Positions 200 through 14,224 of a DNA stretch of 14,705 bases are shown here, in pieces (positions within the stretch are counted from its first letter, which is position 1; each line of letters begins with the position of its first letter). Under the pieces are notes generated by a model, which worked only from the letters and a program-made list of their open reading frames with translations, was not told where the DNA came from and made no database searches. The DNA lies in contig JAUXDE010000036.1 in assembly GCA_030618495.1 (NCBI GenBank), positions 1 to 14,705 on the forward strand, written 5' to 3'. The stretch comes from Clostridia bacterium. Its GTDB lineage: Bacteria; UBA6262; WVXT01; JAUXBS01. The translations under genes were made by a program, and so were the position numbers.

Positions 200-1735
200 A
201 TGGAAAAGATGGAAGACAGAAAGAAATGGATTATTATTACCGTATCATTCTTATCACTTGTTACTTTATTCAGGATGTTGTATATTAATTTAATACCTAT
301 CTCAGCGGATGAGGCGTATTTCTGGGAGTGGTCAAGACACCCCGCGATGTGTTACCAGGACATGCCTCCGATGATTGCGTATTTTATAGCCCTGTTTACC
401 GTTTTCGGCAGCAGCGTGTTCACGATAAGGTTGACAGGAGTTATTCTTATGCTCCTTATATCCATTCTCGTTTTCATGATTACCGGGAGAATCTCCGCAA
501 GTTCCAAAACTGCCGCTTTTACGGTCATTATTCTGAATACACTGCCGTTTATTGCCGTGATATCGGTAATGCTGGGAACCGATATTGTATTGATTCTACC
601 CTGGACGCTTTCCTTATACCTGCTGTACCTTTCCCTGTTTAAAGGCAATAATGTTTACTGGTACTTGTCGGGCGCGGCATTGGGGTTTGCTCTTCTTTCA
701 AAATACGTTGCGGTAATAATTATCATCTCTCTGTTTGTCTACCTGGTAATTTCAAAGCAGAAGAGGTATCTTCTGGGAAAGAAAGAACCGTATATTATGC
801 TGGCTATATGTTTTGCGATGATGATTCCTGTCATAATCTGGAATGCTTCCAACGAATGGTCAAACTTTTCATTCAATCTGTTTTCGGGAAGGTTCCGTTC
901 TCCCGAGGTGACGATAAAAATAAAATTCTTTCTTGAATACATACTCGGCCAGATGTTGTTTGTCTCGCCCCTGTTTTTTATAGGGTTTGTATGGGCTGTT
1001 GTTAAGGCAGTGAAAAGCAGGAACGAAGTGTTTCTGTTCCTGTCGGTGATGTCCCTGACTATATTGTCTTTTTTCGGGGTATGGAGTTTCTTTGACAGAA
1101 CGGGGCCGCAATGGCCTATCCCGGGGTACATTTCCGGAGTGATTTTATTCTGCGTAGTGATATTCAGGGAGATGGAAAACAAAGCCGGGAAAAAGAAACT
1201 GTCCGTTTTCTTAACGCTTCTAATAGCCGGGAACGTCATATTTTCAGCGGCCATATACGGTATCCCCCTTATTCCGAAACTCATCCCTGATTTCGAGCTC
1301 ATCAAAAATGCCTCGACTAAAAGGATTGCGTGGTTTCTTGCTGGCTGGCACAAGGACCTCGGTAAAAGCGTCAGCAGTGTCAGGGCCGGTATGGGCAGGA
1401 AAAACAATACATTCGTAATATGCAGGGGATTTGCATTGTCCAGCTATATGGCATTTCATATGGAAGGCCAGCCTGAAGTTTATTGTATTGGCCAGAGAAG
1501 AGGAGTCGGGGGAGAGGCATACAGGTTCTGGCAGGACTTCAAGGAGGTAATCGGGCAGGATGCTGTTTTTGTTGAAGAACACAGGGAAAAAGGATACATC
1601 TATCAGATTTCACCGGCATTCGAGAAGGTTGAAAAAGACCGGGTGTTTGTTTATGAATATGACGGGGAACCTATAGTAAAAACCGATATCTGGAGATGCT
1701 ATGGGTTCAAGGGGTTTAAAGAGCCTCAGAACTAA
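200..1735 (+). CDS. GT39/ArnT-like integral membrane glycosyltransferase
   Basis: This 511-residue polytopic membrane protein is of the PMT/ArnT (GT39/GT83, PMT_2) type. Such enzymes use a polyprenyl-phosphate sugar to glycosylate a lipid or protein on the outer face of the inner membrane. Hydrophobic helices fill residues 10-375, and a soluble tail of about 130 residues follows. In the first external loop, ADEAYFWEWSRH (36-47) carries the paired acidic residues D37-E38, and YQDMPP (52-57) follows. The later loop motif FDRTGPQWPIPGY is the other family hallmark. The start at 200 has GGGAG six bases upstream; a second in-frame ATG at 209 is possible. The gene has its own consensus promoter and runs into the sprA-like gene, which suggests an envelope or surface-glycan role. 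Donor and acceptor cannot be read from the sequence. Confidence 0.85.
   Translation: MEKMEDRKKWIIITVSFLSLVTLFRMLYINLIPISADEAYFWEWSRHPAMCYQDMPPMIAYFIALFTVFGSSVFTIRLTGVILMLLISILVFMITGRISASSKTAAFTVIILNTLPFIAVISVMLGTDIVLILPWTLSLYLLYLSLFKGNNVYWYLSGAALGFALLSKYVAVIIIISLFVYLVISKQKRYLLGKKEPYIMLAICFAMMIPVIIWNASNEWSNFSFNLFSGRFRSPEVTIKIKFFLEYILGQMLFVSPLFFIGFVWAVVKAVKSRNEVFLFLSVMSLTILSFFGVWSFFDRTGPQWPIPGYISGVILFCVVIFREMENKAGKKKLSVFLTLLIAGNVIFSAAIYGIPLIPKLIPDFELIKNASTKRIAWFLAGWHKDLGKSVSSVRAGMGRKNNTFVICRGFALSSYMAFHMEGQPEVYCIGQRRGVGGEAYRFWQDFKEVIGQDAVFVEEHREKGYIYQISPAFEKVEKDRVFVYEYDGEPIVKTDIWRCYGFKGFKEPQN
1692..1695 (+). promoter_or_regulatory. Shine-Dalgarno site that favours the early sprA start
   Basis: GGAG lies five bases before the ATG at 1701, inside the end of the upstream glycosyltransferase gene. 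The alternative in-frame ATG at 1743 has no purine-rich site at a usable distance. This favours a start at 1701 with a 35-nt overlap and translational coupling. The 1743 start would give a more ordinary short signal-peptide n-region. Confidence 0.45.
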
Positions 1736-4700
1736 AATAAAAATGAGCGTTAAAAATATAAAAACATTAGGATTAACTTTGGTTTTTCTGTTCCTTTGCG
1801 GATATCTTGCGGCGGAGGAAAATGATAAAATCACTGAACTCGATGATTTTCTTAAAAACATGGGATTAATTGAGTTTAATAAGAGCGACTGGAAACGCAT
1901 GAGGATTGAAAAGGAGAAGGGGACCTTTAAGGTTACCGAAGAAATAGAGGAGCCGGCGGAGGAAGGAGAAGTTGTGAGGGAGCTGAAACGCGCCGCCCCT
2001 AAAAAGGGGGGATTGATTGACGTCATAGAGCTTCCTTACGAATCGGAGCTCAGCATCACGGGCAGGCAGGATATTAAACTGCTTTTAGACTACAAAAAGT
2101 ATTATAACAGGGAAGAGGACGAGGATTATACTGAAAGTCTTGAGCCAAAGATGGAACAAAGGACGCAGGTCAAGATAAAGGGCACGGTGGGGGAAAGGAT
2201 AAAGGTCGACGTGGATTATGACAGCGAATCCGAGAAAAAACAGGACATCTCGATTGTCTATAAGGGGAAGCCCGACGATATCGTGCAGGAGGCGGCATTC
2301 GGCGACGTGACCCTTTCACTGCCGGGTTCAGAGTTCGTTTCATACAGGGGCAGTAAGAAGAGCCTGTTTGGCGGTAAGGTAAGCGGGCAGTACAAGAAAC
2401 TCAAGTTCATGGCGATAGGTTCACAGAGCAAGGGTATTCCCGAAGTAAAGAAGTTTACCGGCAAGAGCACGTTTGAAAGCAAAGACATTAACGATTACTC
2501 GTATATGAGGAGAAAGTACTACAAGATTTACGATAGCACCGCCACGGTCCTTCCGGTATCGGGCGAGGAAATTTATATCGACGACAAGGACCTTTCCAAT
2601 AACATTCCCGTTATCCCCGGCATTGATTACAACATGACGGTGGAGCTGGAGGGCGGGACTACCTATTACGGTTTCTTTAACAAGCAGGTGCCCGGCAGGG
2701 ATTACTACATTAATTACAGGGAGGGCATTATAACCTTCAAGAAAACAATCGGCGATAATGACATTATAGCCGTTTACTACAAGCATGAAGGAGGCGAGGT
2801 TGGCGCGACTTACAAAAAAGTAATAAAAAACGAGGATGAGACACTGAACAACGAATTGAGGAATTATTATAATCTCGGCGCTACCAAAATTTCACGCGGA
2901 GTTGAAGGAAGGGATTTTATAGTAAAAATCCTTGATAAGGACCGTAATGAAATAACAACGATAGGTGACATCTACCAGAAAATAGAAATGGACTATGACG
3001 CAGGTATCCTCAGGTTCAATGATGAGGAATTCTTTAATACTTACCTGGGCAATCCTGATATTTACAATAATATAATCAACCCGAATACAGATCATGAGCA
3101 TATTATATACGTGGAGTACTTCCACAGGAAGAAGACCTACAGCCTGAGGTTCAACATGATAGAGGGCAGCGAAAGGGTTCTTTTAAACGGGAGACAGCTT
3201 GAAAAGGATCAGGATTACATGATTGAATACGGTTCGGGTTTCATTACCTTCTTTAAAGAGGATGAGATAACGGAAGACAGCCAGATTGAGATAAGCTACG
3301 AGTACGCGCCATGGGGAGCCGCGGCAAAGAAGAACCTGCTCGGTTTATGGGGGGAGTTTAAGCCTTCGGATAAGTTTTCCGTAAAGGGCACCTTGATTTC
3401 CGACGGCGCGCCCAGGCCTATCAGCGCGCCTGACCTGGGTTCCATACCCTCTTCGATGTTAATCTATGACGTTAATTCAAGCTTGAAGCTTGAAAGCGAT
3501 AAGTTTCCCCTGAAAACCACGATATCGGGCGAGTACGCTCACAGCAGTCAAAATCCGAACGTTTTCGGCAAAGCCATAGTTGATAACATGGAGGGAATAA
3601 AACTTATAGACAGCGTATCAATGCACGAAGATTCATGGAGGATTGCCAGGAACCCGGACAACTCGGTTGTGTCTTCATCATCTACCTTTACCTGGGATTC
3701 GGAGTCTCAAAGCGAATTTCTCGGCAACATCAGCACGACCGTTGCGACAATAAGCAAGCTTGACAGGGTGCAGGTATTGAAAATTGATTATGACATGGGT
3801 AGTGACAGCGAGCAGGCGTCTATGGTTTATTCAATATCAAAATCAGGCGCCGACTACACGAGAAAAGCCAGCCTGGAATGTTATATCCAAGGGAATTACG
3901 GAGGTGAAGTTCTACGGTTCAGGTTGGGAAACATAGATGAAGACGCGGACAACGACGGTAATCTTGATACGGAGGATTTCGGGTTGAGCCGCAGCGTGCC
4001 CGGTGACGCCGGTGAGAATGATAACATATTGAGCGAGAAAGAGGATGTGGGATGGGAGTTTGAAGGATGGGATGATGTTTACAATGTGGAAGACAGGCTG
4101 GACACGGAGGACATTGACAACGACGGCATACTGGACTATGACTTAAATGACGGGGGTGTATTGGTCACAACAGTGACTTGGGGTGCTGAGGTTGGTGAGG
4201 ATGTTAAGGTTGGTGAGGATGATGGGTGGAGGAAGGTTTCGTTCCACCTTAACGTCAGTACGAGCACTGCCTGGACGAACATCAAGCACCTGAGGTTGAC
4301 GCTCACGGGAGTGAGCGGGAAGGGTTCAATTAAGATTGCCGAGTTAAAAATCGCCGGGAACAGGTGGGAAAAAGGAGTGACGGTTTCCACGGGCACCGGT
4401 TCAATTACGGTGGATGCCATTAACAACGAGGACGACCCTGAATATGAATCGTTTACAGACGAGAACACGAAAATTACAATAGACGGCGAAGAAAAGACCG
4501 TAAGAACATGGTACTACAATGAAATGTACCAGGATTACAATGTTATGCCCGGTCAGCTCATAAGAGAGCAGTCCCTGTCGCTTGAGTACACCCTAATCGA
4601 GCCGGGAGACACGGCGTATACCTTAAGCAAGTTAAACAACGGTGACTTCACGGGGCATGAATCCATAGGGTTTTTTGTTTACAGGAAAAGCGATTCAGAT

Positions 4701-6980
4701 GCGGGGGGAACCTTTTTTATGCAGTTCGGTTCTGAAAACGCTTATTATGAATACAGTATTAACCTGAACTGGGAGGGCTGGAAATACATAGAAATAGACA
4801 TGGTGGATGTTAAGAATGAGTTGAAACTGAAGCCGAGAGAATTCAGAGTGACAGAAGGCACCGGGACCGTAGTAGGCGCCCCGTCATTCTTAAGTATTTC
4901 ACAGATTAAAATGGGAATAATCAACAACAAGGGAGCCCCTATCTCCGGAGAGCTATGGATAAATGAAATACACTTAAGCGGTTCAAGGGAAAGGGAGGGC
5001 AGGGCAGCGCGTCTTACGGTCAATACCGGAGTTCCGAAATGGTTTTCGCTGAGCGGTACCTATAAGGGGAAAGAAGGCGATTTTTCAACCATCACCGCAC
5101 CGAGCACCCGCCAGGAGAGTGAGGATGTTTCCGTAAACGGAAGGTTCGACAGGTTGAAGTTTCTGCCGGTTAACGGTAGTTTCAAGAGGAGCAAAATTAC
5201 TACCCCCGTGGAATCATTTATCCCGGGAGACGTAAAAACTTTTGTAAGCAGTTATGAAGAAGGAGTTGTGACAAGGATAAACAGGAACGGAGGGGCAAGT
5301 TTTATAGTGCCCAAACTGCCGAGGGTCAATTATAATTACAGCAGCAGCAACAACTGGTACTCCTCCGATATGAAAGAAGAAAAAGCCAATTCCCACAGGA
5401 TAGACGGCAGTTACGCGCTTCCCATAAGGTTTTTCCCCATACCCCTGTTCAAACTTCACAAGATATTCAACCTCCTGCCGGAGTCAATCAGCTACAGTTA
5501 CGGGCGTTCAGACAGGGAGACTTTGGGAGAAAGTATCACTGATTTCAGCGAGCGGAACAGGAATTATTCATTGAATATAAAAACCGAATTCATAAAGAAA
5601 ATACCGTTTAACGTTTCTTATTCCTTCAAGTCACTGGAAGAAGAAAAGAATTTAAAGGATAGAGAGCTGAGATTACAGGAAGAGTCCGTGAATTTAGACA
5701 CTTCCGTGAAGGTGTTTCCCTGGTTCCAGCCAACCGCGAAGTATTCGATAAGGAACAAGGAGGACTATAGGATACCCACCGACGGTTCGCTGACGAAGTA
5801 CAAAAACATTTCAAGGACCAGCTCGGGGGAAGTAAGTTTGCGGCTCAAGGCGGCGTCAGTTATAAAGGCGATACCGTTAGTGGGCAGGATAAAACTGTTT
5901 TCCAACCTGGTTTCAGACCTGAACGTGAACGGCAAGTATAAATTCAATGACGGGGATATCCATGAGGATGTCGATAAAAACTATGATTTTTTTACTACTA
6001 CCGGTAATATTAACATTCCAAGGTTTGATCCCGTAAGATGGATAGAGGATGAGGAAATAGTGCACAATGAGGATATTAAAAACGGGAGGCTGAAATCGTA
6101 CGGCATGCAGGACACGATTAACCTTGACGGTTCCTGGACCCCGCTAAGCTTCATTAACCTGGGGAAAGGATTGTCCCTGATTACCGGGGCGAGGTTAAGG
6201 GGCAAGTACAGTGTCCTGAGAAATCAGAGGCAGGACGAGGGTACGCTTTCTGAGAAAAATAACACTACCAGGAGCATTCAGGCTACTGTGAAAAATATTG
6301 AAGAGTTTCCGTTGGTTAAGTGGTTCCCTGTTCTCGGCAAGGGAATAAAGAGCGCGCAGACTATTATTAACTACAGCTCAAAAAGCAACGAAACCAGGGA
6401 TATATCAATTTCCACGAGTACCACCATCAGCATAGATTCAAGGTGCAAATTGTGGGTATTTGATTTATGGCTTAAATATGTAAATACTACCAGCGGTACA
6501 AGGCAGTCGGGTATACTGTCGGGGCAGGGGAATAACGATACTTATAATGGCAATATTAACTTCAGGTTGTTCGGCAACTGGCAGTTTATCATTAAGGGTT
6601 CCTATAATAAAGTCAGGCAGTACACCGGAGAAAAGGATGAGGATAATCCGACATTGAACCTGAAACAGGATGATGAATTATTCAACCTGGGGCTTGATAT
6701 GAATACGAGTATTCAGCCGTCAAAGATAGGCTTGGCTCTGCCGGGCACCGCCAGGATAAGAGGCACGCTTTTTAACGTGAGAATCAGTACAAGCCCGTTT
6801 CTCAGGACGGAATCAAAAATAAACACTACTTTATCGTTTCTAACGATGACGGTTGAATACGACCAGGGGACCAATCTTCTGGTGAGTTTCGGTTTAGGGT
6901 TTAAGTTATATGACTGCGCAACTGACAGGAATGACTATTTCTCTTTTAACGGCTGGGGGAAATTGACATTCCAATTTTAA
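1701..6980 (+). CDS. sprA: SprA-like outer-membrane beta-barrel protein (T9SS translocon family)
   Basis: This 1759-residue protein resembles SprA, the giant outer-membrane translocon of type IX secretion. A signal peptide is visible: basic n-region, hydrophobic core at about 23-36, and a likely cut after A38 (LAA/EE). Residues 150-245 hold the typical SprA opening: a version of TQVKIKGTVGERIKVDVDYD, then DDIVQEAAFGDVTLSLPGSE and FVSYRGSKKSLFG. Repeated 'PGRDYYINYREGIITF'-type units follow. Residues 746-814 hold two Asp-rich DxDxDG loops that may bind calcium. Two jelly-roll-like blocks follow (about 840-893 and 945-1110). The rest is beta-strand-rich barrel ending in aromatic FQF, a normal barrel C-terminus. 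Cys33 does not fit a lipobox. Bacteroidota SprA is about 2,400 residues, so this form is short. The start at 1701 rests on GGAG upstream; 1743 is the alternative. No other T9SS gene is in the window, so the secretion role is inferred from the family. Confidence 0.8.
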   Translation: MGSRGLKSLRTKIKMSVKNIKTLGLTLVFLFLCGYLAAEENDKITELDDFLKNMGLIEFNKSDWKRMRIEKEKGTFKVTEEIEEPAEEGEVVRELKRAAPKKGGLIDVIELPYESELSITGRQDIKLLLDYKKYYNREEDEDYTESLEPKMEQRTQVKIKGTVGERIKVDVDYDSESEKKQDISIVYKGKPDDIVQEAAFGDVTLSLPGSEFVSYRGSKKSLFGGKVSGQYKKLKFMAIGSQSKGIPEVKKFTGKSTFESKDINDYSYMRRKYYKIYDSTATVLPVSGEEIYIDDKDLSNNIPVIPGIDYNMTVELEGGTTYYGFFNKQVPGRDYYINYREGIITFKKTIGDNDIIAVYYKHEGGEVGATYKKVIKNEDETLNNELRNYYNLGATKISRGVEGRDFIVKILDKDRNEITTIGDIYQKIEMDYDAGILRFNDEEFFNTYLGNPDIYNNIINPNTDHEHIIYVEYFHRKKTYSLRFNMIEGSERVLLNGRQLEKDQDYMIEYGSGFITFFKEDEITEDSQIEISYEYAPWGAAAKKNLLGLWGEFKPSDKFSVKGTLISDGAPRPISAPDLGSIPSSMLIYDVNSSLKLESDKFPLKTTISGEYAHSSQNPNVFGKAIVDNMEGIKLIDSVSMHEDSWRIARNPDNSVVSSSSTFTWDSESQSEFLGNISTTVATISKLDRVQVLKIDYDMGSDSEQASMVYSISKSGADYTRKASLECYIQGNYGGEVLRFRLGNIDEDADNDGNLDTEDFGLSRSVPGDAGENDNILSEKEDVGWEFEGWDDVYNVEDRLDTEDIDNDGILDYDLNDGGVLVTTVTWGAEVGEDVKVGEDDGWRKVSFHLNVSTSTAWTNIKHLRLTLTGVSGKGSIKIAELKIAGNRWEKGVTVSTGTGSITVDAINNEDDPEYESFTDENTKITIDGEEKTVRTWYYNEMYQDYNVMPGQLIREQSLSLEYTLIEPGDTAYTLSKLNNGDFTGHESIGFFVYRKSDSDAGGTFFMQFGSENAYYEYSINLNWEGWKYIEIDMVDVKNELKLKPREFRVTEGTGTVVGAPSFLSISQIKMGIINNKGAPISGELWINEIHLSGSREREGRAARLTVNTGVPKWFSLSGTYKGKEGDFSTITAPSTRQESEDVSVNGRFDRLKFLPVNGSFKRSKITTPVESFIPGDVKTFVSSYEEGVVTRINRNGGASFIVPKLPRVNYNYSSSNNWYSSDMKEEKANSHRIDGSYALPIRFFPIPLFKLHKIFNLLPESISYSYGRSDRETLGESITDFSERNRNYSLNIKTEFIKKIPFNVSYSFKSLEEEKNLKDRELRLQEESVNLDTSVKVFPWFQPTAKYSIRNKEDYRIPTDGSLTKYKNISRTSSGEVSLRLKAASVIKAIPLVGRIKLFSNLVSDLNVNGKYKFNDGDIHEDVDKNYDFFTTTGNINIPRFDPVRWIEDEEIVHNEDIKNGRLKSYGMQDTINLDGSWTPLSFINLGKGLSLITGARLRGKYSVLRNQRQDEGTLSEKNNTTRSIQATVKNIEEFPLVKWFPVLGKGIKSAQTIINYSSKSNETRDISISTSTTISIDSRCKLWVFDLWLKYVNTTSGTRQSGILSGQGNNDTYNGNINFRLFGNWQFIIKGSYNKVRQYTGEKDEDNPTLNLKQDDELFNLGLDMNTSIQPSKIGLALPGTARIRGTLFNVRISTSPFLRTESKINTTLSFLTMTVEYDQGTNLLVSFGLGFKLYDCATDRNDYFSFNGWGKLTFQF
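4189..4221 (+). repeat. In-frame 18-nt-period tandem repeat inside the sprA-like gene
   Basis: The 15-mer AGGTTGGTGAGGATG occurs at 4189-4203 and again, identical, at 4207-4221, a period of 18 nt (six codons). It encodes two VGED units, directly after the Asp-rich calcium-loop-like region and before the first jelly-roll-like block. It looks like a small in-frame slippage duplication in a linker. Confidence 0.7.
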
Positions 6981-7120
6981 GGTCTTTGGGGTCAGGTCTG
7001 AATTAAGAAAGCTGAATTTGGGGACACGTACCTAATTATTTAAACAACACTATTTAACAAATAATTAGGTACGTGTCCCCGAATTCAAGACCTGACCCCA
7101 GCTTCCTGACCCCAAAGACC
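6981..7120. repeat. 140-bp nested inverted repeat (REP/MITE-like palindromic element)
   Basis: The outer arms are perfect over 16 bp (6981-6996 with 7105-7120; arm GGTCTTTGGGGTCAGG). The inner stem is perfect over 22 bp (7020-7041 with 7059-7080). One T-G wobble followed by six more pairs extends it to 7013-7087, around a 17-nt loop (7042-7058). The right arm carries two copies of CCTGACCCC (7091-7099, 7105-7113). The left 12-mer GGGGTCAGGTCT (6988-6999) can therefore pair with 7088-7099 instead of the outer arm, so alternative folds exist. The element begins one base after the sprA stop codon and has no coding capacity. The form suggests a non-autonomous element moved in trans, for example by an IS200/REP-associated Y1 transposase. 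No transposase or clear target duplication is seen here. Confidence 0.8.
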
Positions 7121-8030: not shown

Positions 8031-8681
8031 TTGCTTAAACAAATATTAAATTTTATTTTTCCCCTGGCCTGCGGTGTTTGCGGCAAGCTGCTTGAAGCAG
8101 ATGACCATAGAAGAATATGCGACGGGTGCTGGAGCAGGATTGCCTACAGCAGGCGAATGGTTTTTCCGTTGCCGTACTGGATGGATGATATATATGCGTG
8201 CTGTTCCTATGAAGGGGTGATAAAGGAGTGCATACACCTGTTTAAGTACAGGGGCAGGGAATATATGGCGCGGCCCCTGGGCGGCATCATGGCTGATTGC
8301 CTTGAAGGCGGAATCGATATTAGCGGTATCGATATCCTTGTGCCGGTTCCGCTTCATAAAAGGAGCAGGTCAAAAAGAGGGTTTAACCAGTCAGAGCTTC
8401 TAATAGGAGAGATTTTAGTAAAACACGCAAAAGTGTTGTCTAATGATAACCTGGTAAGGGTTCAGAATACCCGTTCGCAGGTCCGCCTGTCAAGCAAGGA
8501 AAGAACGATGAACGTAGAGGATGCTTTCCGGGTAAAAAATCCCGAACTGTTTTCAGGCAGGAATGTTTTACTTGTTGATGACGTATGCACTACGGGAGCA
8601 ACACTTAACGAATGCGCGAAATCACTGAAAAACGCGGGAGCGAAAAAAGTGTTTGGCATTGTCCTTGCCCATGGGAGATAA
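8031..8681 (+). CDS. comF: ComF-family phosphoribosyltransferase-like protein
   Basis: This 216-residue protein has the full ComF layout. An N-terminal zinc finger is formed by C14, C17, C30 and C33 (CGVC...CDGC). The central VPVPLHKRSRSKRGFNQSE (104-122) is the most conserved ComF stretch. A type-I phosphoribosyltransferase PRPP loop, VLLVDDVCTTGATL (179-192), carries D183-D184. ComF proteins assist uptake and integration of single-stranded DNA during natural transformation. They are also common in species where competence is unproven, so the name is by family. The start is TTG at 8031, four bases after the PEGA stop codon, with only a weak AAGAAG upstream. The length is normal. It is the last gene of its unit; no strong terminator follows. 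Confidence 0.88.
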   Translation: MLKQILNFIFPLACGVCGKLLEADDHRRICDGCWSRIAYSRRMVFPLPYWMDDIYACCSYEGVIKECIHLFKYRGREYMARPLGGIMADCLEGGIDISGIDILVPVPLHKRSRSKRGFNQSELLIGEILVKHAKVLSNDNLVRVQNTRSQVRLSSKERTMNVEDAFRVKNPELFSGRNVLLVDDVCTTGATLNECAKSLKNAGAKKVFGIVLAHGR

Positions 8682-8789: not shown

Positions 8790-9791
8790 ATGGGAGTTAA
8801 GGTAGGCATCAATGGTTTTGGGAGGATTGGAAAGCTTGTGTTCCGCGCGGCAATTGAAAGAGGAGTAAAGGACATCGATTTTGTGGCCGTTAACGATTTA
8901 ACGGATGCAAAAACGCTTGCGCATCTCTTGAAGTACGATTCGACGTTCGGGGCATTTGACGCGGAAATATCCTGTAAGGATGACACTATAGTAATAAACG
9001 GAAAGAGTTTAAAAGTCCTTTCCGAGAGAGACCCCTCGAAATTGCCCTGGAAGGACCTTGGGGTGGACGTTGTGGTTGAATCCACCGGCATATTCAAGGA
9101 CAGGGAGGGCGCGTCCAAACATCTTAGCGCCGGAGCGAAAAAGGTTATTATAAGTGCCCCCGCCAAAGGGGAGGATTTGACCATAGTTCTTGGAGTTAAC
9201 GAAGACAAGTATGATGGTTCAAAACATAACATCTTATCCAACGCCTCATGCACCACGAACTGTCTTGCTCCTGTCGCAAAAGTGATACTGGATGAGTTCG
9301 GGATTGAAAGAGGTTTAATGACAACCATTCATTCATTTACCAATGACCAGGTGACTCTTGATTTTCCACACAAGGACTTGAGGCGCGCAAGGACCGCAAG
9401 CGCTTCGATGATTCCCACAACTACCGGAGCCGCAAAGGCGATAGCGCTGGCCATTCCGGAACTCAAAGGCAAATTAGACGGCCTTGCCATAAGGGTTCCC
9501 ACTCCGAACGTTTCACTTGTAGATGTTGTTTTTCAGGTGAAAAAGGAAACCACGAAGGAAGAGGTCAATGCGGCATTGAAGAAAGCGGCGGAAGGCAGTA
9601 TGAAGAATTACCTTGAGTTCTGTGAACTACCGCTGGTTTCAATAGATTTTAACGGCAACCCGAAGTCTTCAATTGTGGACAGTCTGTCAACGACCGTAAT
9701 AGGGAATATGGTAAAGGTTCTTTCATGGTATGACAATGAATGGGGCTATTCCAACAGGACAGTTGACCTGATACAGTATATTTCAAAGTAA
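8790..9791 (+). CDS. gap: Glyceraldehyde-3-phosphate dehydrogenase (type I)
   Basis: This 333-residue cytosolic enzyme converts glyceraldehyde-3-phosphate, NAD+ and phosphate to 1,3-bisphosphoglycerate in glycolysis, or the reverse in gluconeogenesis. The N-terminal Rossmann fold starts [19 protein letters not shown]36 in VNDLTD suggests NAD rather than NADP preference. The catalytic motif [12 protein letters not shown] carries Cys154, and His181 lies in [10 protein letters not shown]. The C-terminal [12 protein letters not shown] is also intact. Length and start are normal and the gene has its own strong promoter and SD site. The accC gene follows after 19 nt on the same strand, an unusual neighbour: in many genomes gap is followed by pgk, which is absent here. 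Confidence 0.97.
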
Positions 9792-12913: not shown

Positions 12914-14224
12914 ATGGATCTTAAGAAAAAGATAAAATCACTTCCTGTAAGTCCCGGTGTTTACCTGATGAAAGACGGTAGCTCCGGGATTATTTATGTA
13001 GGCAAGGCAAAGGACATAAAGAAAAGGGTCTCTTCGTATTTCAGGTCTCAAGCCGCCTTGCCGGTAAAAACAGTAGCGCTGGTTTCAAGCGTACGCCAGA
13101 TAGAGTACATTACCACCAACACGGAAAAGGAAGCATTGATTCTTGAAAACGAACTTATAAAAAAGTTCCATCCCAGGTATAACGTTCTTTTTCGCGACGA
13201 CAAAACATATCCCCACCTGAAGCTGGACACTGCCGTGGATTTTCCCCGCCTTGAAATTGTAAGAATAAAAGGCGCCCCTGAAAGCAAAAGCGGAAAGGCG
13301 AAGTACTTCGGGCCTTATCCCGACGTAACATCCTTAAAGAGGACATTAAAAATAATCGGTAAAATATTTCCACTGGTAAGGTGCAATGAAAGGACTTTTA
13401 AATCCAGGTTAAAAGCCGGCGTTCCCGACAGGTGTCTTGATTACCAGATGGGACAGTGCCTTGCGCCCTGCGCGGGGAGAATCAGCAGGAAGGAATACGG
13501 AAAAATTGTCAGGGACATCAGGCTTTTTCTGTCCGGCAGGAAGGAGCGGTTAACGAGGAAGCTGGCAGGGGAAATGAAAAAATCCTCGGACAAACTTGAT
13601 TTTGAAAAGGCAAGGATGACGAGGGACAGGATAAGCTCGATAAACAGCATTACGGAGAGGGTAAACATGCGCGGCACCACCATTGATAAACTGGATTTGC
13701 TAAGTAAAAAGAATGAACTTCTTGAGTTGAAAAAAGCGTTGGGTTTGAAAAGACTGCCCGTTCTCATCGAGGGTTTTGATATATCAAATATTTCCGGAAA
13801 GGAACCGGTGGGTTCCATGGTCCTTTTCAGGGACGCAGAGCCCCAAAAGTCAGGTTACAGGAAATTCAGGATTAAAACTGTGGATTCAATAGACGATGTT
13901 AAAATGATGAAAGAATTGGTGAAGCGCAGGTATGCAAGGGTTATCAAGGATAAACTTCAAATCCCTGACCTGATTGTCATAGACGGGGGCAAGGGGCATT
14001 TGAACGGGGCCAGGACGGTAACTATGGGATTGGGGTTGAAAAATATTCCCGTCGTTGGGATTGCAAAGTCCGAGGAGTTGATTTACGTTCCCGGCAGGAA
14101 CAAGCCGGTCTATCTTGCCCGCTCATCATCCGCGCTGCACCTGCTGCAGCGTGTCAGGGATGAAGCGCACAGGTTTGCCCTCAGCTACCACCGTAAACTA
14201 AGGCATAAAAAAGAATTTTCATAA
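12914..14224 (+). CDS. uvrC: Compact UvrC-type excinuclease subunit, lacking the central block and HhH tail
   Basis: UvrC makes both incisions in nucleotide excision repair. This protein has 436 residues where about 600 is usual. The GIY-YIG 3'-nuclease is intact (1-90: Y17, Y28, K31, R38, Y42, E78, N90). The Cys region CLDYQMGQCLAPC (174-186) and the UVR helix for UvrB (KLDFEKARMTRDRI, 227-240) follow. The sequence then passes almost directly to the RNase-H-like 5'-nuclease (284-430). There the four catalytic positions are present: D289 in FDIS, D327 or D328 in SIDDVKMM, D357 in VIDGGKGH and H419 in DEAHRFA. The segment of about 120 residues that normally precedes LIEGFDIS is missing. The protein stops at HRKLRHKKEFS, where a tandem HhH domain normally follows. 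The frame is open throughout, so this looks like a genuine compact form and not a frameshift. It starts 24 nt after thiC with a weak SD site. Confidence 0.88.
   Translation: MDLKKKIKSLPVSPGVYLMKDGSSGIIYVGKAKDIKKRVSSYFRSQAALPVKTVALVSSVRQIEYITTNTEKEALILENELIKKFHPRYNVLFRDDKTYPHLKLDTAVDFPRLEIVRIKGAPESKSGKAKYFGPYPDVTSLKRTLKIIGKIFPLVRCNERTFKSRLKAGVPDRCLDYQMGQCLAPCAGRISRKEYGKIVRDIRLFLSGRKERLTRKLAGEMKKSSDKLDFEKARMTRDRISSINSITERVNMRGTTIDKLDLLSKKNELLELKKALGLKRLPVLIEGFDISNISGKEPVGSMVLFRDAEPQKSGYRKFRIKTVDSIDDVKMMKELVKRRYARVIKDKLQIPDLIVIDGGKGHLNGARTVTMGLGLKNIPVVGIAKSEELIYVPGRNKPVYLARSSSALHLLQRVRDEAHRFALSYHRKLRHKKEFS

Follow-up and report, generated by a model that had tools for sequence, protein, structure and literature searches.

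A divergent SprA homologue with PorV-family carriers and sorting-domain cargo in a lineage placed by RpoB outside the clade of Flavobacteriaceae

The reading frame at positions 1701-6980 on the forward strand of the window (the whole 14,705-nt stretch of DNA analysed) is a true, if divergent, homologue of SprA. SprA, the very large outer-membrane pore of the type IX secretion system (T9SS), is established along with that system in Bacteroidota; the finding here is that SprA, carriers and cargo also occur in lineages outside the clade in which RpoB groups Flavobacteriaceae. The best reading of the sequence comparisons is that this sprA is an orthologue, vertically inherited in an uncultured clade outside the FCB superphylum, with the placement taken from one marker, RpoB. 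A vertically inherited SprA outside FCB would give the T9SS a wider range than stated in PMC11285876 (2024), where it is listed in several FCB phyla and called absent elsewhere, and would bear on the age of the system. Among the papers listed in literature searches of a library with few subscription journals or preprints, none joined type IX secretion with Elusimicrobi, Lindowbacteria or similar names. The source genome (G000) is a metagenome-assembled genome of 1.7 Mb that is 98% complete.

The frame is uninterrupted and encodes 1,759 aa, a SprA/Sov homologue and putative outer-membrane type IX translocon barrel. The preliminary description had named it SprA-like from an N-terminal signature, jelly-roll blocks and an aromatic barrel end, and these assignments were borne out. 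The SprA/Sov equivalog model TIGR04189 matched in three stretches at E = 7.8e-51, although its 172.6 bits fall short of the 200 set as curated cut-off, and it also matched all 10 members of the own clade, and Pfam SprA_N scored 28.5 bits, above its gathering score of 27. The N-terminal signature (positions 2043-2522, residues 115-274) falls on TIGR04189 positions 97-254, and the second block (3150-3668), which contains the motif GSE..LNGR..DYxIxYxxGxITF, falls on positions 602-790. The third block (4254-5096) is overlapped by the SprA_N match at residues 855-1157. A CBM11-like jelly-roll span with inserts covers approximately residues 619-1098 (3555-4994) and includes a weak Pfam CBM_11 match at residues 973-1046, and the product terminates in KLTFQF. 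An end-to-end alignment joins the protein to ten SprA homologues at 18-38% identity; nine of these come from other lineages, and the sister family supplies the tenth. With the single protein as query, the PDB sequence search gave no match and the contig scan of genomes gave no relative, whereas profile queries did recover SprA and the alignment query did retrieve relatives. A profile built from the ten own-clade members alone retrieved a single protein from the PDB, F. johnsoniae SprA (4e-27).

Two properties that had been noted for this copy are more widely distributed. The Asp-rich, EF-hand-like loops are present (3939-4124, residues 747-808, with DADNDG at residue 748 and DIDNDG at 804), but a comparable block occurs in every aligned SprA that covers the region. 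The protein is indeed about a quarter shorter than the 2,403-residue F. johnsoniae SprA (1759/2403 = 0.73), but its short length is common to the clade, in which complete relatives have 1,700-1,718 aa; the other aligned SprA copies have 1,815-2,260 aa.

Structures were predicted in two overlapping parts, residues 90-1240 using a 20-sequence alignment and residues 560-1759 using a 19-sequence alignment, with moderate mean pLDDT values of 69 and 64, respectively, and low confidence over the last ~130 residues. In the HMM and structure comparisons proposed with the preliminary description, SprA was the best fold match for both halves among all solved structures, far above every other family, and the outcomes named there as refuting the description were not seen. 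For the N half, the top four PDB entries were all F. johnsoniae SprA (E = 5e-51 to 2e-36, the next family following at 1e-8), and for the C half the top four were again SprA (4e-38 to 1e-31; next unrelated entry 2e-5). VIA-align gave Z scores of 19-22 for the N half and 17-20 for the C half. The halves aligned to SprA residues 132-1690 and 771-2396, each model covering part of the chain of what would be a closed 36-strand barrel. CBM11 modules aligned on the jelly-roll region of the models at Z ~14. A TonB-dependent receptor or an LptD barrel was considered and rejected, as such structures ranked well beneath SprA among the fold matches. The window copy thus resembles F. johnsoniae SprA (PDB 6h3i, 6h3j, 8gl6, and 8gl8) in both halves, the N-terminal signature, the jelly-roll region, and the predicted barrel fold, and differs in length, in its 13-19% identity in structural alignments, and in its lineage, which the RpoB tree separates from the clade containing Flavobacteriaceae.

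The comparison set comprised one same-genus and four same-order genomes, with all other relatives related at domain level only. In the RpoB tree, the own lineage is sister to the UBA6262 group (NCBI label Elusimicrobiota) with an SH-aLRT of 100 and falls outside the clade with Flavobacteriaceae, in a single-marker tree with weakly resolved deep branches. The SprA tree recovered the identical grouping at 100/100 and kept the SprAs of FCB-like genomes separate. The concordance of the two trees argues for vertical descent of sprA, as does the sprA-comF and lptFG-sprA synteny described below; lateral transfer from Bacteroidota was rejected because the SprA tree separates the clade from FCB-like SprAs at 100/100. 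Further close SprAs were found in records titled Elusimicrobia (including UBA6262 and fen_1175) and Lindowbacteria.

The source genome was searched for PorV and T9SS sorting domains, as had been suggested, and both were found, with 5 PorV-family matches and 14 sorting-domain matches (TIGR04183, best 4.6e-9). The PorV model PF19572 was above cut-off in this genome and in all members of the order. Each of the five PorV-family genes in the source genome is the one immediately 3' of a gene for sorting-domain cargo. A Pfam scan of four cargo-carrier pairs and the fifth carrier was consistent with this, with several sorting domains and one PorV match below the Pfam cut-offs. Similar closeness was seen in G001, G002, G004, and G005, with gaps of 99-144 nt between matches. 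The cargo carries CarboxypepD_reg, PKD, fn3 or Big_1/invasin domains, to which relatives add a subtilase and an M6 peptidase. Across genomes, the PorV family exceeded the cut-off in 14/15 SprA-positive and 2/24 SprA-negative genomes, and the sorting domain in 15/15 and 3/24, respectively. Sorting domains in the source genome often score higher as FlgD_ig than as Por_Secre_tail, so some of them may not be T9SS signals. PorV-family and sorting-domain genes are also close together in G023 and G032, which gave no SprA match; an SprA of yet greater divergence may be present in them. A separate observation is a 643-aa protein, encoded directly 3' of a sorting-domain gene (L113:3205-5133, contig C95 of the source genome), in which a PorV-like barrel is fused to TPR repeats; PorV-matching frames of 615-648 aa also occur in G002, G004, G005, G041, and G042. 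The fusion is of interest because in F. johnsoniae a TPR protein, SprE, belongs to the extended translocon.

Upstream of sprA lies a GT39-type (PMT_2) membrane glycosyltransferase gene (positions 200-1735, forward strand, PMT_2 1.2e-30). The preliminary description had taken this enzyme to stand in for other T9SS genes and to be coupled to SprA, possibly glycosylating the exported cargo. The replacement is not supported, as PorV-family carriers and sorting-domain cargo are encoded in the same genome, away from sprA. Coupling is very improbable: the two genes are co-directional and overlap by 35 nt, and on contig C93 a sorting-domain gene has another PMT_2 gene upstream of it, but GT39 adjoins sprA in the source genome only, in none of the relatives examined, and the 21 PMT_2 matches in 1.7 Mb make chance adjacency plausible. 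In relatives, the place beside sprA is taken by lptF-lptG and/or comF, which leaves the GT39 gene as a local neighbour. Divergent lptF and/or lptG adjoin sprA in the sister family (G002-G005, partly assembled), L067, L069, L070, L072, G006, and G011, and comF is directly 3' of sprA in L066-L069, so that comF in the window (8031-8681, forward strand), the third gene downstream of sprA, marks conserved synteny. With gapA (GAPDH; 8790-9791, forward strand), the window keeps the order sprA-comF-gapA of L069 with two small genes inserted. The divergent lptF-lptG genes in several deep lineages would suit an SprA-derived large barrel that no longer exports sorting-domain proteins and serves the envelope in some other way, such as alongside the Lpt system. 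This too is a very unlikely account, given the strong genome-level co-occurrence of SprA with PorV-family and sorting-domain proteins, and lptF-lptG does not adjoin sprA in the window.

The search for T9SS partners that the preliminary description had proposed found PorV-family proteins and sorting domains but did not detect GldL or GldM. The GldL model (TIGR03513) matched nothing in the source genome, against 9.1e-65 in the Flavobacteriaceae genome G046, and gave marginal E-values at best (0.003 and above) in the own clade and the other SprA-positive genomes tested. The GldM model (TIGR03517) matched no genome searched, other SprA-positive genomes included, a result in which no positive control responded and which is weak evidence by itself. 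Peptidase_C25/PorU (PF01364) was absent from G000-G003, G005, and G041-G043 and was represented in G004 by a short piece of about 57 residues, and it was strong in G012, G045, and G046 (3.8e-103 in G046); of the PorU model NF033707, only the C-terminal part was matched. These results could be explained by an ordinary, complete type IX system with standard function, in which the GldLM motor, GldKN ring, SprE, and sortase are too diverged for the Bacteroidota profiles. The profiles for GldL and GldM likewise fail in some SprA-positive genomes with full-length PorU, among them G012 and G014, so the failure may reflect divergence. PorU/C25, however, was easily found in G012 and G045, neither of which is a Flavobacteriaceae genome, and not in the own clade, so that the sortase at least is truly not detectable there. 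We consider a diverged standard system rather unlikely overall. The proposal of an SprA in an uncultured phylum with a partner set unlike that of Bacteroidota was supported.

The reading that we favour as probable is a vertically inherited type-IX-like system outside FCB, in which each surface adhesin has its own PorV-like carrier and no sortase takes part. By homology, the Sec-exported outer-membrane SprA barrel would let sorting-domain cargo out of the periplasm, and the gene pairing suggests that each cargo, mostly surface proteins with Ig, fn3, PKD or invasin repeats, would pass from the pore to a PorV-family barrel of its own, the product of the gene that follows it. The SprA pore of F. 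johnsoniae is capped and opens laterally, and cargo exported through it is drawn out by a carrier (PMC10994853). Since no PorU-type sortase was found, the cargo here probably remains on the surface bound to its carrier, as type B cargo does with SprF-like shuttles in F. johnsoniae, and since canonical GldL and GldM were not detected, energy would have to be supplied by an inner-membrane motor that is either diverged or of another kind. What the analysis shows is homology, a fold match, gene pairing, co-occurrence, and the absence of detectable PorU and canonical GldL; that the cargo is exported and anchored, and that the energy source differs or has diverged, is our inference.

Compared with the T9SS of Bacteroidota (GldKLMN, SprA, SprE, PorV, and PorU), the system is alike in SprA, PorV-family carriers, and type-A-like C-terminal sorting domains, and it differs in that canonical GldL, GldM, and PorU were not detected in the own clade and in that its PorV family has several members, each forming a pair with a single cargo gene. 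In F. johnsoniae, type A cargo uses one common PorV, and type B adhesins use cognate SprF-like shuttles that are often encoded next door (PMC12618676). The cargo here is likewise adhesin-like and encoded beside its carrier barrel, whereas the carriers are recognised by the PorV model (one of them weakly by PorP_SprF as well) and the sorting domains score as type A. We offer more tentatively, as a possibility, that this is a sortase-free, GldLM-less type IX system outside FCB in which each cargo keeps a PorV-family carrier of its own as its surface anchor; the division of Bacteroidota cargo into types A and B would then be a later specialisation of such pairing. A vertically inherited SprA with carriers and cargo outside the Flavobacteriaceae clade would also provide natural cases in which SprA operates in the absence of the known motor and sortase, so that what powers SprA becomes directly testable by comparison.

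Several minor observations were also made. A second large family of 1,093-1,456 aa shares an SprA motif (around residues 486-536) and includes L051:6244-10611 (contig C68 of the source genome), L073:6176-9454, and L074:6149-9550; it occurs in Cloacimonadota and Flavobacteriaceae and matches no Pfam family above cut-off. The divergent lptF and/or lptG beside sprA at L035, L043, L045, L063, L067, L069, L070, and L072, which belong to several deep lineages, may indicate a link between LPS export and the type-IX-like system. The UvrC encoded at positions 12914-14224 of the window has 436 aa, compared with 567-698 positions in the matched UvrC models. Between sprA and the next gene, positions 6981-7120 hold a nested inverted repeat with arms GGGGTCAGGTCT and GGGGACACGTACCTAATTA. 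L111, also in the source genome, has two further copies of the inner repeat, and L041 has the outer motif; with this recurrence at other loci it looks like a dispersed element.
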